A stretch of 64,000 nucleotides of DNA, taken from contig NZ_CP061368.1 in assembly GCF_014725735.1 (NCBI RefSeq), positions 3,053,225 to 3,117,224 of the forward strand, in the 5' to 3' direction. The notes below the pieces were generated by a model. That model was given only the letters and a program-made list of their open reading frames with translations. It did not search any database and was not told where the DNA came from. The stretch comes from Wenzhouxiangella sp. AB-CW3. GTDB lineage: Bacteria > Pseudomonadota > Gammaproteobacteria > Xanthomonadales > Wenzhouxiangellaceae. Numbering within the stretch: the first letter of the stretch is position 1; every line of letters starts with the position of its first letter. Both the position numbers and the translations under genes were made by a program. Below, piece after piece: positions 37,802 through 58,028 of the stretch.

Positions 37802-39433
37802 CTACTGCTCGAATCGATCATGAAAGATCTGGTCGAACTCGATTGGCACTTCCCCCAGCACCTCGGAGACGGCCGAGAATTCAGAGGTATTGCCCTCGCT
37901 GTCGGTTGCCGTGGCGACCATGAACTCACCCGCGTCGATCTGTGTTGAGCTGAATGTCAGCGTGCGGCTACCGGCCTCCGGGTATTCGTGTTCGATCAAA
38001 AACAGCCGCCCCTGCTCACGTTCGCCATCGGCCAGAAAGAATTCGATGACCAGCGGAAAGTTCTCTTCCTGGTCCGGTACGGAATAAGTGATCGTGACGA
38101 TGCCGTCTTCCTTGAATGTATGGCTCATGTCCGGTGCGGGCTGCAGATTGTTCGGTCCGGTACCCTCATCGCCACGCAGGATGATGCCGCGACCTTCGTT
38201 GGCGTACATGACATTGCGTTGGATCCGATTTCTCTCAGACATCTCCAGCTCCATGTAAATCCCACCATCACCATCGCCACCCCCGCCATTGAAGGCGAAG
38301 ACGTTGGCATGCCCCGCTTCGGGCCCGCCAATCATGGTCGATGCGCCCCGAATGATGTCGATTCCCGCGAGGGTGTTGCCCAGATCGAGCACGCCGTTGC
38401 GGTCGGTACCGAAAAAATTTCCCTGTACTACCGTATTTTCGGTGGGTGTGGCCTGTAGGCCATCGCTATCGATATACAGCCCGGCGGTGCCGTTGAAGCC
38501 GATGACATTGCCGCGGATGGTCTCCCGATCCTGGAGGACGCCGATCAGGTTATGGTCTGCACCCGGACCCCCGAAGATGGCGATGCCGGCGAACTCGTTT
38601 CCCAGCGGGCTGACGCCATCGGCGGCGATACCGATCTGGTTGCCCAGTACGGAGTTGTTGATCGGCATATTGTCTTCCGGCTCGGCGCCGCAAAGATTGC
38701 CGCCGAAAATCTCCACCCCGTTGACATCGTTGGCCGCAATCAGGTTGGCCTGCTCTGGTTCGGCGCCGCCGATGACGTTGCCGGAACTGTCGCAGGCCAG
38801 AAAGACACCGGCGGTCAGGTTGCCCGGGCCGGGCGACATGCCGGTGCTGTCGGTGCCGATGGCATTGCATTCGATGCGGTGGTCATGCGAACCGACCAGC
38901 GCGACCCCGTGCTCGAAATGGCGAATATTCAGGCCGCGGATCACGCTGCCGTCACTGCCCGGACCCAGCTCCAGGCCAAAAACATCCTCCCCGCCGTTAC
39001 CCTGCAGGGAAACGAGGTAGGCAGGCCGATCAACGATGTCGGATTGACACACGCCTTCATTGCCCGGCTGCGTCGACCCGTCCAGAACCACCGGGCTGGT
39101 GATCAGCGGCAGTTTCTGGCCATCCTGTGAGTCGATCTCGATGACACAGTGGTCATCGGGACAGCCGGCGATGTCGAAATGGATTTCGACCGGGACCGGG
39201 CCCATCTGGTTGGCTTCCTGCAGTGCGGCTCGGAGTGTGCATTCGGCCACCTCGTCGATCAGATTGTCGGTGGCGCACTCACCGTCCAGTACGGTAGCGG
39301 GGTCATCGCCGGTCGAATTGACGGTGAAGGTCTGCGCCGAAAGCGGGCCGGCCAGCATCAGGCTGGCCAACAGCACGGCCGGGACCAGCCGGTGGATGAG
39401 TGGATGGTGAAGTTGCTGCGATATGAGTGTCAT
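37802..39433 (-). CDS. Exported CSLREA-type beta-helix protein with IFHDRFE tail
   Basis: A 543-residue exported protein. Signal peptide at about 1-33 (LVPAVLLASLMLAGPLSAQ). The N-terminal DEVAECTLRAALQEAN is a CSLREA-like box, followed by a right-handed beta helix with many short Asn/Gly/Ile turns (to about 420) and a final beta sandwich (to 520). It ends IFHDRFEQ, the tail motif shared with other exported proteins. The start overlaps the end of the subtilisin gene by four bases, so both are made from one transcript; the protein may be a substrate or partner of that protease. Confidence 0.75.
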   Translation of the reverse strand: MTLISQQLHHPLIHRLVPAVLLASLMLAGPLSAQTFTVNSTGDDPATVLDGECATDNLIDEVAECTLRAALQEANQMGPVPVEIHFDIAGCPDDHCVIEIDSQDGQKLPLITSPVVLDGSTQPGNEGVCQSDIVDRPAYLVSLQGNGGEDVFGLELGPGSDGSVIRGLNIRHFEHGVALVGSHDHRIECNAIGTDSTGMSPGPGNLTAGVFLACDSSGNVIGGAEPEQANLIAANDVNGVEIFGGNLCGAEPEDNMPINNSVLGNQIGIAADGVSPLGNEFAGIAIFGGPGADHNLIGVLQDRETIRGNVIGFNGTAGLYIDSDGLQATPTENTVVQGNFFGTDRNGVLDLGNTLAGIDIIRGASTMIGGPEAGHANVFAFNGGGGDGDGGIYMELEMSERNRIQRNVMYANEGRGIILRGDEGTGPNNLQPAPDMSHTFKEDGIVTITYSVPDQEENFPLVIEFFLADGEREQGRLFLIEHEYPEAGSRTLTFSSTQIDAGEFMVATATDSEGNTSEFSAVSEVLGEVPIEFDQIFHDRFEQ

Positions 39434-41778
39434 TGAATATCTCCGGTTTTGGCTTCGAAGCGGTCCTGAAACAGCTCGACGCGGCAGTTGAAACAGGCCA
39501 GGGCGAAATCCTGGCGGGTGCTGACGGGTTGCCAGGGGTCAAGTGCATCGCCGGCGATTTCCGCGGCTGACACGATGATCGTGACCACACCCTGGTGCTG
39601 GTCCGGGTTCAGGTAGACCGCCTCCAGGTTGTTGCGCTCGTCGGGCTGGCCACCGGGCGCCGACCAGCCATCGACGCCGATGTCGTTGCCGACGTAGTTC
39701 AAGCCGTTGGCCCGGACCAGCAGATCGAGATTGTTGACCCAGGCCGGCGTGCTGCCGCCCAGGCCGTGGCCCGGTGCGTCGGTCCAGGCCAGCGTGATGT
39801 GCATGGGAGCATGCGGGTCGGCTGCAGAGAGGCTGAAGCGCCGTTGCTGACCAGTGGCCGTCAACACGGTCTGCTGATCGTGGACGAAGAGTCTGCCAGC
39901 GGGCGCCATGACCGCCTGCAGGTCCAGCCGGCCGTAGCCCTGGAAACGATCCGGACGATGCCCCAATGGGTCACCGTCGGCATTGAGGTGGCCGACCAGG
40001 TCAAGAGCGGCCCCGGCAAACACTGCCCTGGCCAGAGCCGGAGATGGGGGTGTGCCGGTCTCGGCAATGACCTTTTCGGCCCACACGGCAATCGCCCCGG
40101 TCACGATGGGTGAGGCATGGGAGGTGCCGCAGAAATTGTGCGCGTGGGCGGTATCCGAATCGGCAATGGTGCTGTCGGTGCTGCAACCCGGCGCCACCAG
40201 CTGCGTGACCCGGCGACCGTCACAGGCCGGGCCGTGGGCTGAATTCGCCGACATGCTGTAGATGTCGGTCCCCTGCGCGCCGGAGCCGTCCGTCAGCCAG
40301 CTCGATGCCACCGCCAGCAGATTCTTCGCTTCATCGGGCGCGCCCAGTGAGCTGGGGGCGCAGTCACCCTCGCCATCGCCGTGCCCGTTCATGATGGACC
40401 AGACAGCCAGTATCGGATGCTGACCGGGTTGGTCCGGGTCTGCATCACGACTGATCAGATCGACCTGACGGGTGGGGATGTCGTAGCCTTGCGGCGTGTC
40501 GCTCGACCCCCAGGAATTGTTCGCCAGCACGGCACCGCTGCGCGCCGCATCCTCGTAGATTTTCAGCATGCCGTCCGGGGCCAGTCCACCCGGCCCGTCG
40601 GCGTCGAGAAAGGGGGCCCAGATCTGGCTGACCAGCCCGGCACCCGGTGCCATGCCCTGGCCGCGCAGAAAGTCGTGAAGCGTGATTTCACTGGCGCCGG
40701 TTCCGGCCAGGGCGCCGGCCACGTGGGTGCCGTGATTGCTCAGCTGCCCTTCGCTGCAACTGGCGTGCTCACCCAGGCAGGGCCGCATGCGCCCGACCAG
40801 GTCCTGGTGGCTGGCCAGAACCGAGCCATCGATGACACTGACAACGATGCCGCTGCCGTCGAACCCGATATCGCTCAACCAGTCGGCATAGCCGGTCTGG
40901 ATGGTGCCGGTGTCGTCAATGCCGCCGGCCACCGACTGGTTGCTCATCTCGCCACGGTAGCCGGCATCCGGTGGAATGGCCTGCACGGTGTAGACAAAGG
41001 GCAGTGCGGCCAGGTCGAGATAGCGATCACCGGGCACGGCCATGTGGACGACGTTGAAGTGAGCACCTTGCGGGGTGCTGCTGATGACGCGACCCAGTTC
41101 GGACAAGCCGGCATGAACCCGGCCGGCATCGGCGTGAGCACTGGTCAGCAGCATGGTATCGACCAGGGCAGTGCCGAGCCGCCGCGAATGGGGCTGGACT
41201 TTCCAGGCTGGCAGCATCGCACCGAGCCAGCGCAGCTCCGCGCGCTGTCCGACCGCGGCGATCCTTTCCTGGGTGGCCCAGACCAGATAACTGAACGGGT
41301 GCAGTGGCTGAGCCAGCTCAACGCCGCTTTCGCGTACCGACTGCAACCACTCAGGCCTGATTGGGCCCGAAAACTGGACCAGGTAAAAATCGCCGGTCGG
41401 GTCGGGTTGGTAATCCGTCCATGGCCCGTCCGCGCGGTCCGAACCCCGTGGATCGACCAGCGGATCGAATCGTTGGCCGCCCAGGTGCACCGAGAAGGGG
41501 TCGTCTGGCGTACTGATGATCAGACCCTGCTGCCTCATGCCAGCCAGCTCGGCCGGGTTCACCCGGCCCCAGGCAAAGGCGCCGTAATCGGCAAGTGCCA
41601 GGTCCGCGCCCAGGCGGGCCTCATGCGGGTTGGTCGTCATCACCCTGACCCACGATGATTCGGCGCCGCAGGCAACCACGCTCCAGGCCAGCAACACGCC
41701 GGCCTGCAGGAAACGATTAGCGACGATGAGGACCGAAGTTGACAAGCGTATGGGTTTTCCTGGGCATGAATAGGTCAC
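39430..41778 (-). CDS. Exported subtilisin-like (S8) protease with LFQDRFE tail
   Basis: A 782-residue S8 serine protease. An N-terminal hydrophobic segment (about 12-38, VLIVANRFLQAGVLLAWSVVA) acts as signal. The catalytic triad is Asp317 (VVSVIDGS), His352 (NHGTHVAG) and Ser553 (CGTSHASP). Residues ~40-290 look like a long propeptide or N-terminal domain, and a jelly-roll P-domain-like sandwich follows to 760. Close to the C terminus is LFQDRFE, then AKTGDIQ. The stop overlaps the start of the beta-helix gene by four bases. The likely role is processing of surface proteins or external nutrients. Confidence 0.88.
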   Translation of the reverse strand: MTYSCPGKPIRLSTSVLIVANRFLQAGVLLAWSVVACGAESSWVRVMTTNPHEARLGADLALADYGAFAWGRVNPAELAGMRQQGLIISTPDDPFSVHLGGQRFDPLVDPRGSDRADGPWTDYQPDPTGDFYLVQFSGPIRPEWLQSVRESGVELAQPLHPFSYLVWATQERIAAVGQRAELRWLGAMLPAWKVQPHSRRLGTALVDTMLLTSAHADAGRVHAGLSELGRVISSTPQGAHFNVVHMAVPGDRYLDLAALPFVYTVQAIPPDAGYRGEMSNQSVAGGIDDTGTIQTGYADWLSDIGFDGSGIVVSVIDGSVLASHQDLVGRMRPCLGEHASCSEGQLSNHGTHVAGALAGTGASEITLHDFLRGQGMAPGAGLVSQIWAPFLDADGPGGLAPDGMLKIYEDAARSGAVLANNSWGSSDTPQGYDIPTRQVDLISRDADPDQPGQHPILAVWSIMNGHGDGEGDCAPSSLGAPDEAKNLLAVASSWLTDGSGAQGTDIYSMSANSAHGPACDGRRVTQLVAPGCSTDSTIADSDTAHAHNFCGTSHASPIVTGAIAVWAEKVIAETGTPPSPALARAVFAGAALDLVGHLNADGDPLGHRPDRFQGYGRLDLQAVMAPAGRLFVHDQQTVLTATGQQRRFSLSAADPHAPMHITLAWTDAPGHGLGGSTPAWVNNLDLLVRANGLNYVGNDIGVDGWSAPGGQPDERNNLEAVYLNPDQHQGVVTIIVSAAEIAGDALDPWQPVSTRQDFALACFNCRVELFQDRFEAKTGDIQ

Positions 41779-41890
41779 CTGCCGTCAATGGTCAGGTGTC
41801 GTAAGTAGGCCCATACTCACTTCTTACGCCGATGCCCGTCTGTTCGATACAGCACACATGGGCACCCCGAGGGACCGGCCAGGCGCCGGA

Positions 41891-42601
41891 CTACAGGTGC
41901 TGCGTGTAAGTTGCCAGGCGGTCGGTTTCCTTCTTGGCCATGGCGTAACACTCGCAGCTGAGTGCTTCCAGTTCCTTCCGATCGATCACGGTGATATGTC
42001 CGCGCCGATATTGGATCACGCCCAACTCCTGCAATCTGCCGGCCGACTCGGTCACGCCTTCGCGGCGCACGCCCAGCATGTTGGCGATCAGTTCCTGGGT
42101 CATGGTCAGCTCGTTGGTCGGCAATCGGTCCAGCGACAGCAGCAGCCAGCGGCACAATTGCTGGTCGATGGTGTGGTGCCGGTTGCACACCGCGGTCTGG
42201 GCCATCTGGGTGATCAGGGCCTGGGTGTAGCGCAGCAACAGGATACGCATGGCGGCATCGTTGTTGAATTCGCTCTTGAGCTGGGTCGCCGACAGCCGGT
42301 AGGCGGGGCCGGCACTCTGCACGACTGCCCGACTGGTTGTGCTGGCCCCGCCCATGAACGCTGAAATGCCGACGATGCCATCGTGGCCGACGACAGAGAT
42401 CTCGGCCGAATGGCCGTCGCGCATCACGCAGATCAAGGAAACGATGCAGTCATTGGGAAAGTAGACGTATTGGATTTCCTCGCCGGACTCGTAGAGCACT
42501 TTGCCCAAAGGCAACTCGACCAGCCGCAAATGCGGGATGATCCGGTCCTTGACGCACTGTGGTAGAGCATTCAGCAGTTGATTCTGCTTTGGATGACTCA
42601 C
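41891..42601 (-). CDS. Crp/Fnr-family transcriptional regulator
   Basis: A 236-residue regulator; start set at GTG 42601, which has a perfect GGAGG nine bases upstream. The cyclic-nucleotide-binding-like domain covers about 20-130 (PLGKVLYESGEEIQYVYFPND, DGIVGISAFMGG) but has no obvious cAMP phosphate-binding Arg-Ala, and no Fnr iron-sulfur cysteine cluster at the N terminus. The helix-turn-helix is TQELIANMLGVRREGVTESA (about 170-190). The family often controls stress or polysaccharide genes. It stands alone, on the opposite strand to the exopolysaccharide locus. Confidence 0.88.
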   Translation of the reverse strand: MSHPKQNQLLNALPQCVKDRIIPHLRLVELPLGKVLYESGEEIQYVYFPNDCIVSLICVMRDGHSAEISVVGHDGIVGISAFMGGASTTSRAVVQSAGPAYRLSATQLKSEFNNDAAMRILLLRYTQALITQMAQTAVCNRHHTIDQQLCRWLLLSLDRLPTNELTMTQELIANMLGVRREGVTESAGRLQELGVIQYRRGHITVIDRKELEALSCECYAMAKKETDRLATYTQHL

Positions 42602-42827
42602 TCTTTTTACCTCCAGCACTCAGTGCCGCCGACGAACCCGGCAATCACTCGGCCAATTCCCCAAAAGATGTGATCTTGCTGTCCAAAGGACAGACTACTC
42701 AATCCCAGCGGCATGCGGGCGACTGCCCCCAGTCTCGAGTTTGCCACAATTTTTCGTTCACTATGCGTGCGTTACCGCACACAATGACCGCAAATTCTGG
42801 ATTGATGGCGTAGCTTCTCCTGCGTTA

Positions 42828-43646
42828 TCAGGAATTCAATTGATCTTCAGCTTTCTCCTGTGTGCTCTTTGTGTCTCTGTGGTGAGCTGGAACCAGCCGG
42901 CAACGAACCAGGCTGGAGCCGAATTCGCGCAAGAGTCGATGCCGCAGGATCGACAGTCCCCGGATGGGGACGGTTTCCAGCCAGTCAATCGTCAGCGGAC
43001 TGGCTTCGACCAGCCGCTCGAACTCGGCGATGCGGATCTGGTTCAATCCCCCCTCGACTTCACCGAAGCGTTGGGCACCGTCCTGGCGAAAGCGTGCCCG
43101 CCATCGGATCAGCGCCCGCTCGGTGAAAAGCAGGTGTGCCCAGGGGAAGACCGAAAACAAATGACCTCCATAAGGATGTAGCCAGGTCGGCCCGAAGGAC
43201 ACCAGAACCTCACCGTCCGGTTTGAGCAGCTTGCTCATGATTTCCAGTATGGCCAGCGGATCCGAAAAGTGTTCGAAGGCATCGAAACTGACGATGACGT
43301 CCGCACGCTCTTCCGTATTCATTGCGAAACTGCAGCGATTCTCCAGGCCGGCCTGCTCGGCGCGCTGGCGCGCCCGATCCAGGTGTTTGTGCTGAATGTC
43401 CAGACCAATGACCCGGCAGTCGGGTGCCGCCCTGGCCATGGCAATGGCCTGTTGGCCATCACCGCAACCGAAATCGATCACCGTCTTGCCGGCAAGCGCG
43501 GCTTGCAACCTCCCACCGAAAGCGGATTCGATTTTTCTGTCAGTTGCATCCGATTCCGTTTCCTCTTCCACGAAGTCACGCTTCGGTAAATCCCGCGCAA
43601 TGGTTCTGAGAATCCGCACCCCGACTATTCCACCCAATATACCCAT
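42828..43646 (-). CDS. SAM-dependent methyltransferase, end recruited from an intergenic repeat
   Basis: A 272-residue class I methyltransferase (motif I VIDFGCGDGQQAIAMA, about 55-70; motif IV-like DVIVSFDAFEHF). The substrate is unknown, and the long C-terminal region HPYGGHLFSVFPWAHLLFTE is shared with enzymes in polysaccharide loci. The last ~18 codons (HHRDTKSTQEKAEDQLNS) are read from a copy of the CACCACAGAG-type intergenic repeat seen at 61.9 and 63.3 kb, so the natural end was probably lost by repeat insertion. It is divergent from the exopolysaccharide operon. Confidence 0.8.
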   Translation of the reverse strand: MGILGGIVGVRILRTIARDLPKRDFVEEETESDATDRKIESAFGGRLQAALAGKTVIDFGCGDGQQAIAMARAAPDCRVIGLDIQHKHLDRARQRAEQAGLENRCSFAMNTEERADVIVSFDAFEHFSDPLAILEIMSKLLKPDGEVLVSFGPTWLHPYGGHLFSVFPWAHLLFTERALIRWRARFRQDGAQRFGEVEGGLNQIRIAEFERLVEASPLTIDWLETVPIRGLSILRHRLLREFGSSLVRCRLVPAHHRDTKSTQEKAEDQLNS

Positions 43647-43672
43647 GCATGACCTTCCTTAAGAACGCGACC

Positions 43673-43687
43673 TTGTCGGTTCGACAA
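43673..43687. promoter_or_regulatory. TTGTCG/CGACAA inverted repeat before the exopolysaccharide operon
   Basis: TTGTCG-GTT-CGACAA lies in the 199-bp divergent spacer between the methyltransferase and the EpsB-like gene, 27 bases from the methyltransferase start. It may be an operator; the regulator is unknown. Confidence 0.35.
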
Positions 43688-43845
43688 ATACAAGATTATG
43701 CAGCGCATGCGCGAATAGATCTGTACGCCAGCACACCTTACTACCCGAAACATCATCAGCGTGCATGTTAGGTTCGCCAGCGCACAGATGCACTCGAACA
43801 GATGCCGGAAGATCGCTATCCCTGATCGTGATTTGAAGGCATAGA

Positions 43846-45396
43846 GTGACAGGCATGTTCAAGACATTCGAGCCGGCTTCGGTAACGACAAGCGAAAGCG
43901 AAACATTACGCACGCTTGAACCACCACATCGTTCGGCCAGGCTGGCAACCAGAATTCAGATTCATCATTGTCTGGTCGGCAGGTTGGTCCGTCAGCAAAG
44001 CCTGCGCTGGTTCGTAATACTGGCGGCCGTTGAAGTCATCCTGCTTCTGCTTGCGCCCTGGCTAGCGATCCAGACACGCTTTCATGCCGACCCGGCAAGC
44101 CTGGGTGCCGCCGGCACGATGCTGCCACTTCACAGCGGTGTATTCGCCGCAGTGATCTGGGTCAGCATGGTGGCGCTGGGCATGTACCAACGTCACGGTC
44201 GAGAGATCAAGGGTGTAGTGATTGGCACATTGACTCGTCTGGTGTTGGCAATGATCGGCGGTGCGCTGGTCTTGATGGTGTTTTACTTTCTTGCGCCGGG
44301 TGTGGAAGTCGGCCGCGGTGTACTTGCGTTGTCCCTGGTTTATGCTTTCATGCTTCTGATCCTGTCTCGCCTGACATTTTCCAGGCTTGCCCACGGTGGC
44401 CGTCTGCGTCGTCGCGCGCTCTTTCTTGGTGAGGGCAGCAGGGCTTCAGCCTTGCTTGACGACGCAAACCTGGAAGACGACCTGCGCTCTGTCCAGATCG
44501 TGGGCTTTGCTGCCAGCGGACCTGGAACCCAGTCCAGGCCCCTGACTCGGGACCCTTCTCGAGTCATCAAGATTAACGGGTCGCTGGTGGACACGGCTTT
44601 TGAACAGCAGATTGATGACATCGTCGTGGCCTCTGACGATATGCGCAACTGTCTGTCCATGGATGAACTGATGACATGCCGGCTGGCCGGCATCAATGTC
44701 TTGCGCCTGGAAAACTTCTATGAACGTGAAATGGGGCGCGTGATGCTGGAAGGCCTGCTGCCTTCATGGTTCATCTTTACCCAGCGCTTCAACGGCACGG
44801 TATTGCGCCGCTTCAGTCGGCGCCTGTTCGATCTGGCTTCGGCTACCGGCATTCTGCTCCTGGCCTGGCCGATGATGATCATGGTTGCCCTTGCGATCTG
44901 GCTGGAGTCCGGCGGCAAGGGCCCTGTGCTCTATTTCCAGGACCGGGTCGGTGAAGGCGACAAGGTCTTCGCCCTGGTCAAGTTCCGCAGCATGCGTACC
45001 GACGCGGAAAATGACGGCGTTGCGCGCTGGGCGCAGGCCGGCGATGACCGCGTCACCCGGGTCGGCGCGTTGATCCGCAAGCTGCGCCTGGACGAGCTGC
45101 CGCAACTGTATAACGTCTTCAGGGGCTCCATGAGCATGGTCGGTCCACGTCCTGAAAGACCCGAGATCGTCGCCGGCCTGCAACGCGATATTCCCTACTA
45201 CGGACTGCGCCACAGTATCACTCCGGGTCTGACCGGATGGGCCCAGTTGCGCTATCCGTACGGTGCATCGGTCGAAGATGCGATCGAGAAGCTGCGCTAC
45301 GATTTGTACTACATCAAGAACCAGAGCCTGCTGTTCGATCTGCAGATCCTGCTACAGACCATCGAGGTCGTTTTGTTCCGGCGGGGCAGCCGATGA
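43846..45396 (+). CDS. Exopolysaccharide initiating sugar transferase (EpsB/WcaJ type)
   Basis: A 516-residue polyprenyl-phosphate glycosylphosphotransferase, which puts the first sugar-phosphate on undecaprenyl phosphate at the inner membrane. Four N-terminal membrane helices lie between about 48 and 180, followed by a CoA-binding-like domain ([14 protein letters not shown]), a re-entrant helix ([20 protein letters not shown]) and the catalytic bacterial sugar transferase domain ([20 protein letters not shown], then [19 protein letters not shown] and GPRPERPE). The GTG 43846 start has GAAGG upstream. It is the first gene of a five-gene operon with overlapping ends. Similar proteins serve in XrtA/PEP-CTERM-linked loci, but no exosortase is visible here. 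Confidence 0.92.
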
Positions 45397-46361
45397 ATAC
45401 CAGGGCAGCCAGAAGCAATCCGACTTCCCGCTTGCCACTGGTCTCGGTGATCACGCCCGTGTTCAACGGTGCGACCTGGCTGGAAGAATCGATCGACAGT
45501 GCGTTGGCCCAGACCTTTCCTTTCCTGGAAATCATCGTGGTCAACGACGGTTCGACCGATGACAGCCTGGCCATTGCTCGTGCCCGGGCTCGCAACCATT
45601 CAAGAATCCGGGTCATCGACCAGGACAACGCCGGCCTGCCGAACGCCCGCAACCGGGCGCTGAAGATGGCTCGCGGCGCCTACATGGCCCTGCTCGATGC
45701 CGATGACGCCTGGCTTCCAAATCATCTGCAGTTGGCCATGCAGGCGTTTGAACGCGATCCCGATCTGGGCCTAGTCCATGCCAACATCGAGCGCGTCGAC
45801 GCCGATGGTGCCCGTGTCAACATCCCGGAACGATCATGGCATGAAGACATGGACGCCTTCGATGCCCTGGCCTTGCGCCATGAGCACGTGTCCTGCCCCA
45901 CCGCTGTTTTTTCTCGCGCAGCCATTGACATGGTCGGCGGTTTCGATCCCCGGTTCACCGGGCTGGGTTGCGAGGATCGCGACCTTTGGCTGCGCATCGC
46001 CGCACGCTTTCGTATCCGCTTTCTTGACCAGGTCACTGCTCGCTATCGTCTCCACCCGGCCAGCATGAGCGCTGCCAGCGAGCGCATGGCATTGGCACGA
46101 CAGTTGCTGGTCGCCAAGCTGGCCGTTTCGGCACAAGGTGCGCGGCTGGTGTCGCAAATGGAGGCCATGATCGACAGTGATCTCGGGCTGGGCCTTTCCG
46201 AGCAAGGGCGCCATATCCGGGCGATTGCCCGGCAGTGGGCTGCCTTGCACCAGAGCCCGACCGACCGGCTGATCCAGCGCCGGTTCATTGGTGCCCTGCT
46301 GGCGCCCTGCCGTTCGCTGGTGCCGCAATATCTCCCCAACCCCCATCGAGGTCGAAGCTGA
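45393..46361 (+). CDS. Glycosyltransferase family 2 (first)
   Basis: A 322-residue GT-A fold glycosyltransferase. The nucleotide-sugar site is LPLVSVITPVFNGATWLEES to VVNDGSTDDS, and the metal-binding DDAW (ALLDADDAWLP) is near residue 100; the acceptor-side ED (CEDRDLWLRIA) is near 195. The start overlaps the previous stop (ATGA). It adds a sugar to the lipid-linked repeat unit; sugar identity not readable. Confidence 0.9.
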   Translation: MNTRAARSNPTSRLPLVSVITPVFNGATWLEESIDSALAQTFPFLEIIVVNDGSTDDSLAIARARARNHSRIRVIDQDNAGLPNARNRALKMARGAYMALLDADDAWLPNHLQLAMQAFERDPDLGLVHANIERVDADGARVNIPERSWHEDMDAFDALALRHEHVSCPTAVFSRAAIDMVGGFDPRFTGLGCEDRDLWLRIAARFRIRFLDQVTARYRLHPASMSAASERMALARQLLVAKLAVSAQGARLVSQMEAMIDSDLGLGLSEQGRHIRAIARQWAALHQSPTDRLIQRRFIGALLAPCRSLVPQYLPNPHRGRS

Positions 46362-47428
46362 TGAAACGCAGACCAACCCTGCTCGTGACCGGTGGTGCCG
46401 GCTATATTGGTTCCCATGTCGTGGCTCAACTTGGAGCTCGCGGCGAGCGCATCGTGGTGCTGGACAATCTCAGTACTGGGCATTCCCGGGCCGTTCTGCA
46501 TGGTCGCCTCGTGGTTGGCGATATTGGCAACCAGCGCCTGCTGCGCGCCCTGTTTCGTGAATACCGGATCGAGACCGTCCTCCACTTTGCCGCCCGCATC
46601 GTGGTGCCGGAATCGGTCGCCAAACCGCTTGAGTATTACGACTGCAACACGGCAAAGGCCCGTACTCTGCTGGCCGAATGCGAGCGAGCCGGCGTCGAAC
46701 AATTCATCTTTTCGTCGACGGCTGCGGTCTACGGCGACCTGGCCGGCGGCCAGGCGAGTGAATCCAGCCTGGTTGACCCGGCCAACCCCTATGGTCGCTC
46801 GAAACTGATGACCGAGTGGATGCTTGGCGACCTGTCGGCGGCATCAAGAATGCGCCATGTCATCCTGCGCTACTTCAACGTAGCCGGTTGCGATGCCCTG
46901 GGCCGGATCGGCCAGGACACGCCCGAAGCAACCCACCTGATCAAGGTGGCCTGTCAGCATGCCGTGGGCCTGCGGCCCAACCTGGAGATCTTCGGCACCG
47001 ACTATCCGACACCGGATGGCACCTGCGTGCGCGACTACATTCATGTAGAAGACCTGGCCGCGGCCCACGTGCTCGCGCTCGAATATCTGCGTGAAGGAAA
47101 CGGCTCGCTGATAGCCAACTGTGGTTATGGGCACGGATTCAGCGTGCGTGAAGTCATTGACGCTCTTGGGCGGATTCATGGCCAGGTGCTCAATGTCCGG
47201 GAGTCCGGCCGACGGGCCGGCGATATGGCCAGTATCGTCGCCAACAGCGACCTGATGCGTGAGTGGCTGGGCTGGCGCCCGTCGCGCGACGACCTGGATC
47301 TGATCCTTGCATCGGCCCTGGCCTGGGAAAAACAACGCCTGGCACGGGCAGAAATTCAAGCAGACATCCCAGAGCCTGCTGTAACGGGATGGCGCAAATC
47401 GGCTGCCAGGCCAGGGGTAAACCCATGA
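46361..47428 (+). CDS. galE: UDP-glucose 4-epimerase (GalE-like)
   Basis: A 355-residue short-chain dehydrogenase-fold epimerase that interconverts UDP-glucose and UDP-galactose (or the N-acetyl forms). The NAD site is VTGGAGYIGSHVV at about 8-20, the catalytic region FSSTAAVYG and YGRSK (Tyr/Lys near 149-153), and the substrate loop DYPTPDGTCVRDYIHVEDLA near 214-233, all standard. The start overlaps the previous stop by one base. It probably supplies a galactose-type precursor to the polymer made here. Confidence 0.9.
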   Translation: MKRRPTLLVTGGAGYIGSHVVAQLGARGERIVVLDNLSTGHSRAVLHGRLVVGDIGNQRLLRALFREYRIETVLHFAARIVVPESVAKPLEYYDCNTAKARTLLAECERAGVEQFIFSSTAAVYGDLAGGQASESSLVDPANPYGRSKLMTEWMLGDLSAASRMRHVILRYFNVAGCDALGRIGQDTPEATHLIKVACQHAVGLRPNLEIFGTDYPTPDGTCVRDYIHVEDLAAAHVLALEYLREGNGSLIANCGYGHGFSVREVIDALGRIHGQVLNVRESGRRAGDMASIVANSDLMREWLGWRPSRDDLDLILASALAWEKQRLARAEIQADIPEPAVTGWRKSAARPGVNP

Positions 47429-48399
47429 GTGAAATGAGCAACAATCGATCGGTCAGGCAAATGGGCAGCAAGCTTCCGCTGGTCAGCGTGATCATTCCTG
47501 CTTTCAATGCGGCCCGTTTCCTGCCACGAGCGCTGGTTTCGGTGGCCGGGCAAAGCTATCCGGCCGCTCGGATCGAGACGATCGTGATCGACGATGGATC
47601 GACCGACAATACACTGGCCATTGCCCAGGCTCTTGAGGGGCAAGTGTCCGGGGTCAAGGTCTTCAGCCAGCCCAACCAGGGCGTGGCGGCTGCCCGCAAC
47701 CTGGCCATTGCTGTCAGTTCCGGTGAACTGATTGCCTTTCTTGATGCCGATGACCGCTGGCTGCCCGACAAGATCGCGGCCCAGGTCGGGATCTACCAGG
47801 CCGATCCGGATGTGGGCCTGATCCACTGCGGCTTTGACTTTGTCGATCAGCACGGGACCGCCCTGCCTGACTGGCCGCGTCGGTCGCGACTGGATCAAGG
47901 CGATGTCCTGCTGGAATTCCTCTGCGACTTCTTCCTGATCACTTCTGCTGTCATGGTTCCCCGGAAAGTCCTTGAAAAGGTGGGCGGGTTTGATGAAACC
48001 CTGAAAGTCGGCGAAGACAACGAACTGTTCTTGCGCATCGTCAGTGCTTACCTGGTCGGCTGCGCGCCGCAGATACTGCTCGAACGCACGGTTCGGCCAG
48101 ACAGTCTGAGTCGCGAGGATTTCGACCTGGATGCTCGCGTGGATCTGGCCACCATCGAACGGTACCTGGTTCAGCATCCGGACTTTGCACGCCAGCATCG
48201 CGAGCGTATCGATGATCACCTGGCTACTTACCTGTACGGCTTCGGTTATCGTCTGCTGGATGAAGGCCAGGTCAGCCAGGCCCGCACCATGCTGCGACGC
48301 TCTCTTTCAAGACGCTGGTCGGTACCTGCCACGCGCAGCCTGCTGCGCAGTTACCTGCCCGAAGCACTGGCCCGTTCCGGAAGGGCGGCCCTGCGATGA
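47425..48399 (+). CDS. Glycosyltransferase family 2 (second)
   Basis: A 324-residue GT2 enzyme: donor site SVIIPAFNAARFLPRALVS and VIDDGSTDNTLA, metal-binding FLDADDRWLP near 100, and GEDNELFLRI near 195. Translationally coupled by ATGA to the epimerase gene. A second sugar-adding step for the exopolysaccharide repeat unit is the likely role. Confidence 0.9.
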   Translation: MSEMSNNRSVRQMGSKLPLVSVIIPAFNAARFLPRALVSVAGQSYPAARIETIVIDDGSTDNTLAIAQALEGQVSGVKVFSQPNQGVAAARNLAIAVSSGELIAFLDADDRWLPDKIAAQVGIYQADPDVGLIHCGFDFVDQHGTALPDWPRRSRLDQGDVLLEFLCDFFLITSAVMVPRKVLEKVGGFDETLKVGEDNELFLRIVSAYLVGCAPQILLERTVRPDSLSREDFDLDARVDLATIERYLVQHPDFARQHRERIDDHLATYLYGFGYRLLDEGQVSQARTMLRRSLSRRWSVPATRSLLRSYLPEALARSGRAALR

Positions 48400-49514
48400 G
48401 TTCGCGACTGAAATCAGCAACCGGCTCACCGCCGAGCGAACTGCAGCCGAACTCGACTCCCCTTCAATCTCCGGCCTTCGGTAGTCGCTGGCGCGGCGCC
48501 CTGGCGCGGTCACGCCTGATGCGTGCTTTGAGCCGTCCATGGGCGGGGTTGGCCACTTGCCTGATGTATCACCGCATCTGTCCGGATCAAGCCGGTTCTG
48601 ACGACATGGCCCGGGGTTTTGCCCCGAACCTTGACTTGAGCGTCACGGCAGGTGCTTTCGATGAACAGATGGCCTTCGCGGCGCGACACTTCAACTGTCT
48701 TTCACTGCCGGAAGCGATTGAACAGCTGGCCGCAGGAACGCTGCCGAAGCGCAGCCTGATCGTGACCTTCGATGACGGTTACCTGGACAATCTCACCCTG
48801 GCCTTGCCGATCCTGCGCAGGCATGCGGTCCCGGCCACCGTCTACATTGCCACCGGCCTGATCGAGCAGGCCGAGCTGCCCTGGTGGTATGAGCTCGAGG
48901 ATCTGATTGCCGGTGCTGACGGATTCCACATTCACTGGGACAATCAACATCTGCATTTCTCGACCATCGATGCCGATGCCAAACGCAGAACCTTCGACAT
49001 TCTCAATCCCATGCTCAAACGCATGGATTCTGCCGAGCAGATCAGGTTCATGGGATTGCTGCGGCAAAGCTCACGCCAGCCCGTTGAGAAGGACAACCAA
49101 TTCATGAACCATCGGCAGCTGATTGAACTGGCTTCCGATCCACTGATTACCATCGGCGCGCATACCCATCATCATCTGGCGCTCAGTGAACTCAAGCCCA
49201 TCCGACTGCGCCATGAGATCACTCACTCGAAGGAGTTGCTGGAAAACTGGCTCAAGCAGCCGATCGAACATCTGGCCTATCCGTTCGGTGGCGAGGCGCA
49301 TGCAGCGACTCGTGAGTTCAGCGTGGCTGAAGAGCTCGGCTTCTCCTCTGCCGTAACGACCCGGTTGGGGCATTTTCAGGTCTTTCACAAAAATCACCTG
49401 CTGGCCCTGCCGCGCATCGGTATCGGCTACCAGGACTGCATGGCGCGTTTCGAGTGGAAGCTCAGCGGTCTGTACAGCATGGTCAGGGCGCCGACCAGCC
49501 GCTGGACTTGCTAG
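48396..49514 (+). CDS. Polysaccharide deacetylase (NodB/CE4 family)
   Basis: A 372-residue CE4 deacetylase. The metal-binding motif 1 LIVTFDDGYLDN lies near 123-134 and motif 2 is GAHTHHHLALSEL near 251-263; LAYPFGG is a later conserved block. It removes N- or O-acetyl groups from a glycan, so the polymer probably contains N-acetylated sugars. No signal peptide is visible, so it may act on the lipid-linked precursor in the cytoplasm. ATGA overlap with the GT2 gene; last gene of the five-gene unit. Confidence 0.85.
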   Translation: MSSRLKSATGSPPSELQPNSTPLQSPAFGSRWRGALARSRLMRALSRPWAGLATCLMYHRICPDQAGSDDMARGFAPNLDLSVTAGAFDEQMAFAARHFNCLSLPEAIEQLAAGTLPKRSLIVTFDDGYLDNLTLALPILRRHAVPATVYIATGLIEQAELPWWYELEDLIAGADGFHIHWDNQHLHFSTIDADAKRRTFDILNPMLKRMDSAEQIRFMGLLRQSSRQPVEKDNQFMNHRQLIELASDPLITIGAHTHHHLALSELKPIRLRHEITHSKELLENWLKQPIEHLAYPFGGEAHAATREFSVAEELGFSSAVTTRLGHFQVFHKNHLLALPRIGIGYQDCMARFEWKLSGLYSMVRAPTSRWTC

Positions 49515-49630
49515 TGAGGGGATAGCGGCCAGGCACCGGGAAGCCACCAATCGGGACGACACGTGCCTGATGGCTGGGCCGCCCGGTGCCTGACCGGTAG
49601 TTCTTCTGGTTGCAGCCGTTTGTAAGGGAA

Positions 49631-49752
49631 CAGGGGCCAGGGATCAGGGACCGGTGGTCAGAGGTCAGAGGACCCGGAAACCGGAAACCGGAAACCGTCA
49701 AAGGTCGGTGAGCCCGAGGAGCCTGTCCGTCTTCCCTAGTCCCTAGTCCCTG
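49631..49752. repeat. Mixed heptamer repeats after the deacetylase gene
   Basis: Several different 7-base units follow each other: CAGGGAT/CAGGGAC, GGTCAGA x2, GGAAACC x3 (49676-49696) and AGTCCCT x2-3 (49731-49751). The spacer of 246 bases holds no gene. The period of seven is shared with arrays at 36.7 and 50.8 kb although the unit sequences differ. Confidence 0.65.
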
Positions 49753-49760
49753 GTAACCAG

Positions 49761-50759
49761 CTACCAATCCGAATCCAGGAATGTGAGGTCCCACTCGTCC
49801 GGGTCGGCGGGCAATCCTGCACGCTCGAGGTGTTGCACGAAGCAGTGGCCTGACCGGTGGCGTCGAACAAAGCCCATGCCGCGTATCAGTGCATCTACCC
49901 GCGGTCGGCCAAGCGACCAGAATGCGACGGCATCACTACGGTGATTTTCGTAGATATGGCGGATCAAGGCCTGGATGTGTCGCCTTCGTGGATGTCGAAG
50001 CCTCAACTCGAGTACCTTGGTCGTGGCTCCCATGATCTTGGTTACGGCATAGCCTTCCAGAAGCTCACGCTCGTAGATCATGAGGAGCTGGATATCATCT
50101 CTCGGGTTGTGCTTTACTCGCCATTTCATGAACTGAGCTGAGCGATCACCACAGATCCGCTCGACCGGGGCAAACACATTGAACTGGGTATCATCGCCGC
50201 TCCAGCAGCGTACCTGCACCGTTCCGGTCTTGGGCCCCATGACCCATTTTCGATAAGCGGTCCAGGGAAACTCGAATGCCCGCCGCATCAGGGCGACCCC
50301 GGCCTTTTCAAGCGGCAGCCTGGGTGTGAGCATGCAAATCGACAGGCTGAAACTGGCAAGCCGGTCCCAACCGGAGCTTTCATGCGCCCGTATCGATGCG
50401 GGAAGCGACGGAAAGCTCAGGTAAAACGATTGGTCGGACACTCCCGCAGGCCGTTGCGCTACAAGGAACTGCATCACCTCGGAGAAATTTCCCTTGCCGC
50501 GAACCTCCTTTCCAAGCAATCCATCAACCGTCTGAAGGCCGATGATTTCGCGACCACGCCAGAGGAAGCGTTGCGGAATGATCGCCACCGCACCCACGAC
50601 CTCTCCTTCGGACAGTATCTTGAAGCGCTGCGCCTTGCCGGCGGGATTCGCATCGTATTTCCACTCGAACCAGTCCATGGACTGCAGGGCGAATCGGTAG
50701 CGCTTGAAAAGGCGAACGATGGCCTGGCTGTCGTCGACGGTGGCTTGCTCGATGTTCAT
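49761..50759 (-). CDS. GNAT-type acyltransferase in the exopolysaccharide locus
   Basis: A 332-residue protein with an N-terminal GNAT-like core (NIEQATVDDSQAIVRLFKRY, GAVAIIPQRFLWRGREIIGLQT, GLLGKEVRGKGNFSEVMQFL) and a longer C-terminal domain. I chose ATG 50759 with AAGGA in place; the frame is open to 50837. Relatives sit in polysaccharide or exosortase-linked loci and probably acylate sugars or lipid intermediates; the substrate is unproven. It is on the opposite strand to the main operon. Confidence 0.72.
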   Translation of the reverse strand: MNIEQATVDDSQAIVRLFKRYRFALQSMDWFEWKYDANPAGKAQRFKILSEGEVVGAVAIIPQRFLWRGREIIGLQTVDGLLGKEVRGKGNFSEVMQFLVAQRPAGVSDQSFYLSFPSLPASIRAHESSGWDRLASFSLSICMLTPRLPLEKAGVALMRRAFEFPWTAYRKWVMGPKTGTVQVRCWSGDDTQFNVFAPVERICGDRSAQFMKWRVKHNPRDDIQLLMIYERELLEGYAVTKIMGATTKVLELRLRHPRRRHIQALIRHIYENHRSDAVAFWSLGRPRVDALIRGMGFVRRHRSGHCFVQHLERAGLPADPDEWDLTFLDSDW

Positions 50760-50809
50760 CGCGATGTCCTTTCGAACGGACCTCGCTGAAGGCTCATCAG
50801 GTAGTTGCA

Positions 50810-50882
50810 GGGTCCGGGTTTTGGGTTCAGAGTTCAAGGGTTCAGGGTTCAGGGTTCAGGGTTCAGGGGTCAGGGGTCAGGG
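50810..50882. repeat. TTCAGGG heptamer array
   Basis: Four or more tandem copies of TTCAGGG, then GTCAGGG copies, occupy the 5' side of the GNAT gene, partly inside the spacer of about 420 bases that runs to the beta-helix gene. The rest of that spacer (50883-51177) should hold promoters; I see no gene in it. Confidence 0.65.
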
Positions 50883-51177
50883 AACACCTCTTTGCAGGCC
50901 GCTTGCATGGCCCGGGAATTTTGCAAAAAGGTGTCTTGTTTTTGGGTGATATTCAGTGTTTGCTGGCAAACATTGTGATCGCCCTCCTGTTTCTTGCCTG
51001 AAAGCATCGACTACCGCACTACGATTCAACGAACCGGCAACGCCGGTTGCAGGCGTTTCTTAACAACTTCACGGCCATACTTTTTCTCGAAGACCGGCCG
51101 GTAGGCGGTCAGCCCGAATGATGGCTGATTGTCGACCCCCCGGAACAAGGGGTGTGTCAACCACGAGAGAAAGCTCA

Positions 51178-52845
51178 ATGATGTCTCGATCCAGTTTCCA
51201 AATCCGCGCATTGCGCGGGTCAGCCATATTCATTCTCCTGTTTCTGATCGTTCCGGTGGCCTTGGCTACGGAGTGGCATGTCAGGACCGACGGCGGCAGC
51301 GCCAGTCAATGCACCGGACAGGTCGACGCCGCCTATCCGGGTAGCGGCAGCAACCAGGCCTGCGCCTGGAACCATCCATTCGTGGCGCTGCCACCGGGTG
51401 GGTCGGCTCGAATCCAGGGCGGCGATACCCTGCACATTGGAGCCGGCGACTACATGATGGGCTACGGTGCGCCCAGCACGGAAAGCTGTCACGGGAGCAT
51501 TCCCTACAATTGTTTCATGACCCGGATCCCGAGCGGTCCATCGCCCACACAACCCACCCGAATTCTCGGTGCCGGACATGACAAGGGCTGTACCCAGGCT
51601 CCCGAACTGTGGGGTACGGAAAGTGCCTGGATGGTGGTCAACATGGAAGGCAGTTCCAATGTCGAGCTGGCCTGCCTGGAAATCACTGACCGCTCCAGTT
51701 GCATTATTTCGCATTGCCACAACGGTAAGTGTGGTGGCGAAGTGGCCGCGTGCAATCAAAGCTCGCCGCCGCTTGGCAAGTGGGCGTCGACCGGCATCTC
51801 TGCACGTGATTCCAGCAAGGTCATCCTTCGTGATGTCAATATCCACGGCCTGGCCAATCGCGGCATTCATGCCGGTCGCATCAGCGACTGGACACTCAAG
51901 CGCACCCGGATCAACGCTAACGGCTGGGTCGGCTGGGATGGCGACCTCGGCGGGAACAGCTCCAACAGTGGCACCATCAAGTTTCTTGAATCCGAGATCG
52001 GCTACAACGGCTGCGCCAAACGCTGGCCGAGTGGCGAAATCTTCGGCTGCTGGGGTCAGGGCGGTGGTGGATACGGTGACGGGCTGGGGGTTGGTGAGTC
52101 CGGCGGTCACTGGATCTTCGAAGACAGCACCATCCACCGCAACACCTCCGACGGCATCGACCTGCTCTACCTCAATAATCAGGGCAAGGTCACGATCCGG
52201 CGCACACTGGTCGATTCCAATGCCGGCAACCAGATCAAGGTCTCGCGTTCGGCCCTGATCGAAAATTCCGTTGTGGTCGGCAACTGCGCTTACTTCAATG
52301 GCGAGGGCAACATGCTTGCCGGTGATCACTGCCGCGCCATGGGCGATGCAGTCTATGTCGGGCTGAGCAACAATTCGCAAACCGACCTGATCAACAACAC
52401 CTTTGTCGGCCAGGGCAACTGCGTGATCAGTAGTAGCGGTGGCACCTCGGGCTCGCGACTGCGCCTGACCAACAACCTGATCATTGGCAAGGACTACTGG
52501 CTTGATCCGAGCAAGCTCAGCTGCCTGTATTATTCCGGCGCCAGCGAGGAGATGATCTGGGACCGCAATTTCATCAGCAATGTTCGCAACGGTGCCTGCC
52601 CGGGCAACAGCCTCTGCGGAAGCGCACCGGGGATCGCCAGCCTGGATCTGGGCACCTTTGATCCCGAGCCATTGCCGTCGAGCCCGCTGATCGATACGGC
52701 TTCGACAGTACTGGCGCCGTCCGACGACTACCGGTCGCTGCCGCGCCCGGTAGGCAACGGGCCGGATATCGGCGCCATCGAGTATGGCGCGGGGGCGCCT
52801 GCCGTGGATGACTCCGACCGGATCTTCGGCAGCCGCTTTGACTAG
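51178..52845 (+). CDS. Exported beta-helix protein A with IFGSRFD tail
   Basis: A 555-residue exported protein. I chose the ATG pair at 51178/51181; the signal peptide is IRALRGSAIFILLFLIVPVALAT. The body is a right-handed parallel beta helix (cysteine-rich CHNGKCGGEVAACNQ near 199-213, GIHAGRISDW, NTSDGIDLLYL). The C-terminal SPLIDTASTV to GPDIGAIEYG is the usual closing module of such proteins and ends with DRIFGSRFD. Beta-helix proteins in polysaccharide loci are often lyases, epimerases or glycan binders, but I see no catalytic signature. A near paralogue lies at 56502, separated by three leftward genes. Confidence 0.75.
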   Translation: MMSRSSFQIRALRGSAIFILLFLIVPVALATEWHVRTDGGSASQCTGQVDAAYPGSGSNQACAWNHPFVALPPGGSARIQGGDTLHIGAGDYMMGYGAPSTESCHGSIPYNCFMTRIPSGPSPTQPTRILGAGHDKGCTQAPELWGTESAWMVVNMEGSSNVELACLEITDRSSCIISHCHNGKCGGEVAACNQSSPPLGKWASTGISARDSSKVILRDVNIHGLANRGIHAGRISDWTLKRTRINANGWVGWDGDLGGNSSNSGTIKFLESEIGYNGCAKRWPSGEIFGCWGQGGGGYGDGLGVGESGGHWIFEDSTIHRNTSDGIDLLYLNNQGKVTIRRTLVDSNAGNQIKVSRSALIENSVVVGNCAYFNGEGNMLAGDHCRAMGDAVYVGLSNNSQTDLINNTFVGQGNCVISSSGGTSGSRLRLTNNLIIGKDYWLDPSKLSCLYYSGASEEMIWDRNFISNVRNGACPGNSLCGSAPGIASLDLGTFDPEPLPSSPLIDTASTVLAPSDDYRSLPRPVGNGPDIGAIEYGAGAPAVDDSDRIFGSRFD

Positions 52846-56370: not shown

Positions 56371-56501
56371 GGTGATGCCTGGGCTTGTCGAAGGGCCGCC
56401 AGTGTGCGCGATCGCACCGAACCGGCCACCGGACTGTGCAAGATTCGTCTCAGGTCCCTGAGCAGCCCGCTCGACCATTTGTTCAAGGAAATCGAATCGA
56501 C

Positions 56502-58028
56502 ATGCGAAATTCCCCCATTACCAGGCTCGCCATCACCCTGATCCTGCTGGCTGCGGCAGGTTCCATCGCTGCAGCCGAAACCTGGCATGTGCGCGCCGAC
56601 GGCGGGAGCGCTGAACAGTGCACCGGCCTGGTCGACGCCCCCTACAGCGGTACTGGCAAGGGCCAGCCGTGCGCTTGGGCGCATCCCTTTATCGCCCTGC
56701 CCCCCGGCGGCCCGGCCAGGATCGCCGGCGGCGACACGCTGCACATCGGTCCCGGAGATTACATGATGGGCTACGGTGCGCCCGACACTGAAAGATGTCA
56801 CGAGAGCATTTCCTACAATTGCTTCATGACCCCGATCCCGAGCGGACCATCGCCTTCTCAGCCCACCCGAATCCTCGGTGCCGGACATGACAATGGCTGT
56901 GCCCAGGCCCCCGAACTGTGGGGCACGGAAAGCGCCTGGATGGTGGTCAACATGGAAGGCAGTTCCAATGTCGAACTGGCCTGTCTGGAAATCACTGATC
57001 GTGGCGGCTGCATTTTGTCGCATTGCCACAACGGCAGGTGTGGTGGCGAAGTGGCCGCTTGCAATCAAGGCAAGCCACCGCTTGGCAAGTGGGCCACAAC
57101 TGGCATCTCTGCACGCGATTCCAGTCAAGTCATCCTTCGTGATGTCAATATCCACGGCCTGGCCAATCGCGGCATTCATGCCGGCCGCATCAGCGACTGG
57201 ACGCTGGAGCGGGTGACTATATGGGCCAATGGCTGGGCCGGTTGGGATGGTGACATCGGCCCCGACAGCGCCAACAGCGGCACAATGATCTTTCGCCAGG
57301 TCGAGATCGCCTTCAACGGTTGCGCCGAGCGCTGGCCCCAGGGCGATGTCTTCGGATGCTGGGCGCAAGGAAGTGGCGGCTATGGAGATGGTCTGGGCAC
57401 GGGGGCGACCGGCGGTCACTGGGTGTTCGAAGACAGCCGGGTCCACCACAACACTTCCGATGGCATCGACCTGCTCTATCTGACCGATGGCGGCCGGGTC
57501 ACGATCAAGCGCACACGGGTCGAGGGCAATGCCGGCAACCAGGTCAAGGTATCCCGTGCCAGCCGGATCAGCGACAGCGTGATCATCGGCAACTGCGGAT
57601 ATTTTTCCGGTCACCCCAACATGCATGATTCCGATCACTGTCGCGGGCTCGGTGATGCCGTGTACGTGGGCATGAGCGATGGCGCGCAAACTCAATTGAT
57701 CGACAATGTCATTGCCGGCCAGGGCAACTGCCTGGTCAGCAGCGGCGAAAGTGATCGCCACTCGCGCCTGCTGCTGGCCGGCAATCTCATGGTGGGCAGT
57801 GACTACTGGCATGATTCGAGGAAGAAGGCTTGTCTGTTCCATGCCAGCTCGCGCCACGGCGGGGTAGACTGGCTGGCCAACACCATCGGTGAGGTTCGCC
57901 ACCGTCACTGCCCACCCCGCAGTCGCTGCGGCGTGGAAGCGATTCGCGATGATGGCCGCCTTGAGCGTATTGGATTCCTTAATCAAGGTCTATTCCCTAG
58001 TACGTTGATCAACAGATTGACGCCTTGA
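56502..58028 (+). CDS. Exported beta-helix protein B, paralogue of A without the tail
   Basis: A 508-residue exported protein (signal peptide RLAITLILLAAAGSIAAAE). It matches protein A along its whole length, including DYMMGYGAP, AGHDNGCAQAPELWGTESAW, the cysteine cluster CHNGRCGGEVAACNQ and NTSDGIDLLYL. The match ends at the position of A's SPLID: here the protein stops with PSTLINRLTP and lacks the final ~45 residues including the DRIFGSRFD tail. So it is a duplicate whose C-terminal module was lost or diverged, and it may be secreted differently. Confidence 0.75.
   Translation: MRNSPITRLAITLILLAAAGSIAAAETWHVRADGGSAEQCTGLVDAPYSGTGKGQPCAWAHPFIALPPGGPARIAGGDTLHIGPGDYMMGYGAPDTERCHESISYNCFMTPIPSGPSPSQPTRILGAGHDNGCAQAPELWGTESAWMVVNMEGSSNVELACLEITDRGGCILSHCHNGRCGGEVAACNQGKPPLGKWATTGISARDSSQVILRDVNIHGLANRGIHAGRISDWTLERVTIWANGWAGWDGDIGPDSANSGTMIFRQVEIAFNGCAERWPQGDVFGCWAQGSGGYGDGLGTGATGGHWVFEDSRVHHNTSDGIDLLYLTDGGRVTIKRTRVEGNAGNQVKVSRASRISDSVIIGNCGYFSGHPNMHDSDHCRGLGDAVYVGMSDGAQTQLIDNVIAGQGNCLVSSGESDRHSRLLLAGNLMVGSDYWHDSRKKACLFHASSRHGGVDWLANTIGEVRHRHCPPRSRCGVEAIRDDGRLERIGFLNQGLFPSTLINRLTP

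Follow-up and report, generated by a model that had tools for sequence, protein, structure and literature searches.

Why do exported proteins of quite different fold carry the same few residues at or near their C-termini? The question is raised by a 64,000-nucleotide stretch of contig NZ_CP061368.1 of Wenzhouxiangella sp. AB-CW3 (the window, i.e. the whole stretch of DNA that was analysed), in which an earlier note had described a motif, [IL]F-x-[DS]-RF-[ED], on five such proteins and proposed that it is a sorting, anchoring or secretion signal. The choice of folded cargo by type II secretion systems (T2SS) is an open question, and one type of T2SS, here designated T2SS-A and defined by a PDZ-bearing GspC together with GspD, GspE and GspF, follows this seven-residue tail through gains and losses with few exceptions. 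On balance, and from sequence comparison, we lean towards the reading that the C-terminal motif, in its wider form [IL]Fx[DN][GR]F[ED], is a linear recognition tag for T2SS-A.

A seven-residue tag on exported proteins of AB-CW3

The copies of the tag and the proteins that carry them are, in window coordinates:

197..2533, minus strand: M9 collagenase-like exported protease, 778 amino acids, with a PPC domain (Pfam: Peptidase_M9 357 bits, PPC 29 bits)
578..598, minus strand: tag copy IFHSRFE, internal, 126 amino acids ahead of the stop, between the Peptidase_M9 and PPC domains
15756..17987, minus strand: exported repeat protein, 743 amino acids (weak Big_3_5 match near its end, under the curated cut-off; signal peptide by heuristic)
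15774..15794, minus strand: tag copy LFIDRFE, stop 5 amino acids downstream
37802..39433, minus strand: CSLREA-like beta-helix exported protein, 543 amino acids (matches under curated cut-offs)
37808..37828, minus strand: tag copy IFHDRFE, stop 1 amino acid downstream
39430..41778, minus strand: exported subtilase (Peptidase_S8), 782 amino acids (Pfam and signal-peptide heuristic)
39454..39474, minus strand: tag copy LFQDRFE, stop 7 amino acids downstream
51118..52845, plus strand: beta-helix protein A, 575 amino acids, with a choice-of-anchor Q domain immediately ahead of the tag
52822..52842, plus strand: tag copy IFGSRFD, the protein's final residues

All five copies are present where they had been reported, 126, 5, 1, 7 and 0 residues ahead of the respective stops, and their hosts do differ in fold (Peptidase_M9 with PPC, Peptidase_S8, beta-helix and choice-of-anchor Q). 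The claim of a positionally fixed C-terminal tag is borne out for four of the five and had to be given up for the M9 collagenase, in which the motif is internal and upstream of the PPC domain. The tag region of the five window proteins had no match in NCBIfam at E up to 10 or in Pfam at E up to 1, and identity with a curated sorting domain was rejected on these grounds. A close paralogue of beta-helix protein A (window 56385-58028, plus strand) ends without a choice-of-anchor-like stretch and without the tag; its C-terminal part may have been cut or frameshifted.

Across the whole 3.84-Mb genome, the coding pattern [ILMF]FxDRF[ED] gave 17 matches and the reversed pattern none; all 17 strict copies lie in frame within open reading frames (ORFs), 0–7 residues before the stop. 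Relaxing positions 1 and 4 gave 44 matches versus 4 for the reversed pattern, which added true C-terminal copies (e.g. VFQDRFE, IFRSRFE and IFQSRFE) together with internal chance matches. Twenty-five tagged AB-CW3 proteins were read, one of them 5'-truncated, and 23 have a signal peptide compared with 51 of 129 background ORFs from the same stretches, as called by a simple heuristic that membrane proteins also pass; one of the two tagged proteins without a call is the truncated one. The enrichment among signal-peptide proteins that the earlier note had looked to as a check is thus present, and supports its suggestion that the motif may act as a sorting, anchoring or secretion signal.

The Pfam content of 24 scanned tagged proteins (20 scanned against Pfam only, not NCBIfam, in addition to four of the five from the window) is unrelated, and includes subtilases, cadherin and Ig repeats, kelch repeats with HYDIN/VesB-like Ig domains, right-handed beta-helices and SpoIID; a further protein has a weak matrixin match and several have no Pfam match. 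The DNA spelling of the tag varies from copy to copy in this genome, and selection therefore seems to act on the peptide. Non-C-terminal copies were seen in the window at 578-598 (minus strand), before the PPC domain, and at L084 1483 (plus strand), 134 amino acids from the stop; at L363 1520 (minus strand) the tag stands right behind an apparent signal peptide. This looks as though any linker or end that lies exposed could function as a tag site. A small exported family, GTIGQxDA...GGFW, with no function assigned, is represented by L008, L119, L115, L090, L362, L368, L364 and L229; these eight members were chosen by pattern and are all tagged, the selection covering tagged members only. The predicted structure of a small tagged family (alignment A2) was uninformative (mean pLDDT 52).

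Spread in Lysobacterales and the residue at position five

The search of relatives that the note had proposed found the motif beyond chance in the genus, the family and the order. Among 60 relatives the R form was abundant in the window genus (up to 75 matches per genome, with 0–2 in reversed controls), and much of the remaining order Lysobacterales has the form [IL]Fx[DN]GF[ED] (up to 48 matches per genome); one genome, G055, has mostly N at position 4 (54 matches versus 1 for [DNSG][RG]). Counted as raw pattern matches, the R:G ratio was 580:26 in the window genus (30 genomes) and 10:372 in other families (24 genomes); within the family it was 36:2 in G035, 7:34 in G030 and 4:84 in five other genomes. 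An R at position 5, as in the consensus first given, is therefore correct for the window genus and its close kin, with G taking its place in the rest of the order. The fifth tag residue has switched to R in concert within the window genus, across hundreds of unrelated genes, and a concerted one-residue difference on this scale points to one shared reader.

In named public genomes, IFxDGFE followed by a stop was found in at least 117 stretches, 80 of them with names. Among the matches listed, with taxa sorted by record name, the match stands at the end of a long ORF, before a true stop, in 37 of the 40 Lysobacterales-type records, 16 of the 18 unresolved metagenome-assembled genomes (MAGs) and 2 of the 22 records from other taxa; the names among these matches include Dokdonella, Tahibacter, Pseudofulvimonas, Marinicella, Rudaea, Chiayiivirga and Wenzhouxiangella. 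Long ORFs ending in IFxDGFE were also seen outside Lysobacterales at L184 (Sedimenticola MAG) and L227 (Lentisphaerae MAG), and may reflect misbinning, transfer or chance.

Most tag counts are of pattern matches rather than of proteins that were read. Where matches in the order were read, 77 of 107 lie no more than 12 residues from the stop (17/17 in AB-CW3, and 19/31, 24/30 and 17/29 in the other samples, which include tag-poor genomes). In a position control from other orders of the class, 30 matches were read, 16 of them in ORFs of at least 100 amino acids, and 3 were within 12 residues of the stop. A class-wide spread of the tag was rejected, as each of the 365 genomes lying outside the order, in a class sample of 370, has at most 5 matches. 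Single matches do occur in 203 of these 370 genomes, as chance or a compositional artefact would produce them, but that explanation is already refuted and has practically no probability left, given the excess over reversed patterns in AB-CW3 and order-wide (below), the opposed R:G ratios and the association with T2SS-A.

A second possibility is that the motif is the remnant or first strand of a common domain, spread by domain shuffling and without any signalling role. Jelly-roll modules start with F-E-x-G...W, and some of the tails do run on with SG or SGN (L004, L075 and L079); the few internal copies noted above would also fit. We nevertheless consider this very improbable, because all 17 strict AB-CW3 copies end within 0–7 residues of the motif on unrelated folds, most of the matches read in the order are close to the stop, the DNA spelling varies and a whole genus differs in concert at one position.

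Co-occurrence of the tag with one type II secretion system

The presence of a T2SS as such was rejected as a correlate of the tag, since GspD-family secretins are near-universal (a match in 60 of 61 relatives, 54 of them over the cut-off) and an Xps-like second T2SS is also present in tagless genomes. A GspD search in relatives did suggest that only one kind of GspD is present in the tag-poor genomes G043, G053 and G056, with no GspD at all in G054. AB-CW3 has a gspC-D-E-F locus, T2SS-A, and a second, Xps-like T2SS locus; BLAST separates GspD of T2SS-A (44–74% identity to the AB-CW3 copy, G000:C1:984260-986173) from that of the Xps-like T2SS-B. Of 25 T2SS-A loci, read over a limited length, 24 have gspC, 23 gspE, 16 gspF, 17 rhlB, 15 ftsE and 14 ftsX, the usual order being rhlB|gspC-D-E-F|ftsEX; in two tagged genomes (G039 and G429) neither rhlB nor ftsEX is in the stretch read around T2SS-A. 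All six T2SS-A GspC copies scanned have T2SSC and PDZ domains, and the Xps-like GspC of AB-CW3 had no Pfam match. The AB-CW3 locus (L301 9374-14903, plus strand) has only gspC-D-E-F between rhlB and ftsEX; pseudopilins and gspL/M might be shared with the Xps-like system.

For one set of 249 genomes from the order, the tag pattern HTNTTYNNNRAYSGNTTYGAN was counted and GspD of the A type (GspD-A) scored. The pattern gave 3870 matches against 248 for the reversed control, and at least 8 matches were present in 74 of 82 GspD-A-positive genomes compared with 6 of 167 others (medians 40 and 1; Fisher 2e-46, uncorrected for ancestry). The threshold of 8 is one of four tried (5, 8, 10 and 15), which give odds ratios of 138–248, and GspD-A positives were set from best_E after the table had been seen, the weakest one accepted being G522 (2e-97, in two pieces). 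The exceptions were re-read after this first count; with their loci and a GspD tree taken into account the figures became 75 of 82 versus 5 of 167, G560 being left out (its GspD falls outside the A clade, as does that of G605) and G513 taken in (an A locus at a contig end). G587 lies inside the A clade in this tree. Neither rhlB nor ftsEX stands beside the T2SS of G560 or G587, and with both classed as non-A the count is 75 of 81 versus 5 of 168.

The association also holds within families. In family f2, T2SS-A is present in 2 of 78 genomes and precisely those two are tagged (52 and 62 matches), with none of the other 76 tagged; in f12 it is present in 11 of 76 genomes, 10 of which are tagged (30–176 matches, the upper figure, from G609, being the highest in any one genome), and none of the remaining 65 reaches the threshold. 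In f9, 20 of 21 genomes with T2SS-A and 2 of 4 without it are tagged, and in f8 2 of 3 and 2 of 21 respectively. With both states present in each of these four families, at least four gains or losses are required; the tests take no account of ancestry. At the level of genera, tallied by eye, 28 have both tag and T2SS-A, 4 T2SS-A only, 3 the tag only and 45 neither. The tag is therefore linked to T2SS-A in particular and not to T2SS in general, which gives the earlier note a candidate for the co-occurring machinery it had asked after, T2SS-A being the only one profiled.

Several alignment columns, among them 270 of GspC and 129, 195 and 251 of GspD, have acidic residues in the R-type lineage and for the most part neutral or basic ones in other lineages, which could reflect co-evolution or a proteome that is acidic in general. 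In the GspD tree G030, with mainly G-type tags, branches within the R-type group; its placement may be due to reversal, transfer or weak resolution.

Several points weigh against T2SS-A as the reader of the tag. Five tagged genomes have no detected GspD-A: G444, G497 and G501 (90–96% complete, 180–530 contigs) and, in f8, G454 and G479 (97–98% complete). Sampled matches are truly C-terminal in 2 of 4 cases in G479 and in 3 of 4 in G516 (also f8 and without GspD-A, 6 matches), so tags can exist without T2SS-A. Conversely, T2SS-A occurs without the tag in G467, which has an intact locus, and in G587, whose GspD groups with those of tagged G474 and G567 (support 0.94); in each the sole pattern match is not a tag. 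The gain and loss events behind the table may be few, coming from four families, and a third gene could share the tag's profile, as T2SS-A was the sole candidate profiled over the 249 genomes. The covariation of R or G with the acidic residues of GspC and GspD was not used as evidence, since the members of the clade have a common ancestry and perhaps acidic proteins in general. PDZ-type T2SS are described outside the order (PMC12369372) and the tag is at background level in the class sample, so the code would be lineage-specific. Finally, no excreted proteolytic activity is reported for AB-CW3 in the available part of PMC7691419, which would suit retention of the proteins equally well. A further five genomes of 1.8–2.6 Mb (G023, G007, G042, G052 and G455) have T2SS-A and few matches (2–6).

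Some of these exceptions would be expected if the tag were read by another factor, such as a chaperone, a protease or a different exporter, that had been lost and kept together with T2SS-A by happenstance: the profiling covered one candidate machine, a few f8 genomes are still tagged although no GspD-A was detected in them, and in two genomes T2SS-A is present but the tag is not. We regard this as improbable, as the match between tag and T2SS-A holds across the four mixed-state families and the cargo suits a machine that carries folded proteins out of the periplasm.

Proposed role and relation to known signals

If T2SS-A does read the tag, the tagged proteins would leave the cytoplasm by the Sec route through their N-terminal signal peptides and take up their fold in the periplasm. 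Their tail, being exposed, would then dock on T2SS-A, with the PDZ domain of GspC and/or the periplasmic domains of GspD as the likeliest sites, and the folded protein would pass through the secretin and arrive on the cell surface or in the medium. The signal peptides support the Sec step, and the co-occurrence in genomes supports a link to T2SS-A; docking and passage through the secretin are inferred. Two features expected of T2SS substrates were found, an N-terminal signal peptide in 23 of 25 proteins by the heuristic and a T2SS in the genome. C-terminal peptides are frequent ligands of PDZ domains; the motif may have several residues after it, however, so that a free C-terminus would not be required for reading. 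We put at about even the chances of the wider proposal that a short linear C-terminal peptide serves as a T2SS substrate-recognition code in many families of the order, read by the GspC PDZ domain and/or GspD, and that code and reader co-evolved from G to R in one genus. The PDZ domain of GspC (EpsC) is needed for a subset of T2SS substrates (PMC12369372), and in AB-CW3 the T2SS is part of the core genome and proteolysis is cell-bound (PMC7691419).

Given this cell-bound proteolysis, the exported proteins may stay on the surface, and we have kept as the main rival a role in surface retention or anchoring, in which T2SS-A would export its cargo by other, structural signals and the tail would bind a surface receptor or be processed and attached. 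Several of the tagged proteins look like adhesins or surface proteins (with cadherin and Ig repeats, kelch or beta-helix), one has a choice-of-anchor domain immediately ahead of the tag, and the GlyGly-CTERM of Vibrio confers membrane association, with outer membrane passage needing a second signal (PMC13393428). We consider retention rather unlikely all the same, as the 0–7 residues past the motif in the 17 strict AB-CW3 copies leave no space for a membrane helix and basic cluster.

Among known systems, substrates of type I secretion systems have a C-terminal signal and no N-terminal signal peptide, and membership of that class is contradicted by the signal peptides of the tagged proteins. 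The C-terminal signal of type IX secretion systems (T9SS), found in Bacteroidota, is a whole large folded domain. The tag resembles T9SS (Por secretion) in being a C-terminal address that would be read by an outer membrane export machine, and differs in having seven residues and in occurring in Lysobacterales; no T9SS-type C-terminal domain was present at the tag in the five window proteins, no search having been aimed at Por genes. The identifiable T9SS C-terminal domain has itself been contrasted with T2SS (PMC12802150).

The tag is closest in pattern to lineage-wide C-terminal tags that often occur many times per genome, i.e. LPXTG/sortase, PEP-CTERM/exosortase, MYXO-CTERM and, above all, GlyGly-CTERM/rhombosortase, likewise a many-to-one tag on unrelated exported proteins that was found by co-distribution and is linked to T2SS (PMC3237569; PMC13393428). 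In build it is different. In GlyGly-CTERM, which a rhomboid protease cleaves, a motif is followed by a membrane helix and a basic cluster, LPXTG and PEP-CTERM are tripartite with a membrane helix (PMC3237569) and MYXO-CTERM is also called tripartite; the present tag has neither helix nor basic tail, and with 0–7 residues past the motif in every strict AB-CW3 copy it was not assigned to this class. Further, no evidence is given in the available part of PMC3237569 that rhombosortase marks a subclass of T2SS, whereas the present tag marks one T2SS type.

The known T2SS signals comprise loops of PelI and Pel3 (PMC7949064), the Ig-fold of VesB with the EpsC PDZ domain (PMC12369372) and a lipobox-adjacent motif with GspN (PMC12802150). 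As proposed for the tag, they are exposed and partly flexible stretches read by GspC, GspD or GspN; unlike it, they are structural, multi-site or lipobox-tied, and the available parts of these papers state no common linear signal on soluble substrates. Such a cargo signal is described as not known in papers of 2021 and 2025 (PMC7949064, PMC12369372, with PMC12802150 among them), and a universal element 'has yet to' be found (PMC12802150). If T2SS-A reads it, the tag would be the first linear signal common to soluble T2SS cargo, and would serve as a portable export tag; signal, reader and code switch would be testable by single-residue changes, and secretomes across much of the order would be predictable from sequence. 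If it serves retention instead, it would still be a lineage-wide sorting signal without a membrane helix, of which no description was found in the literature searched. By its sequence and distribution the tag appears to work like a C-terminal sorting signal outside the tripartite class, and would represent a new variant among T2SS signals if it proves to be one.

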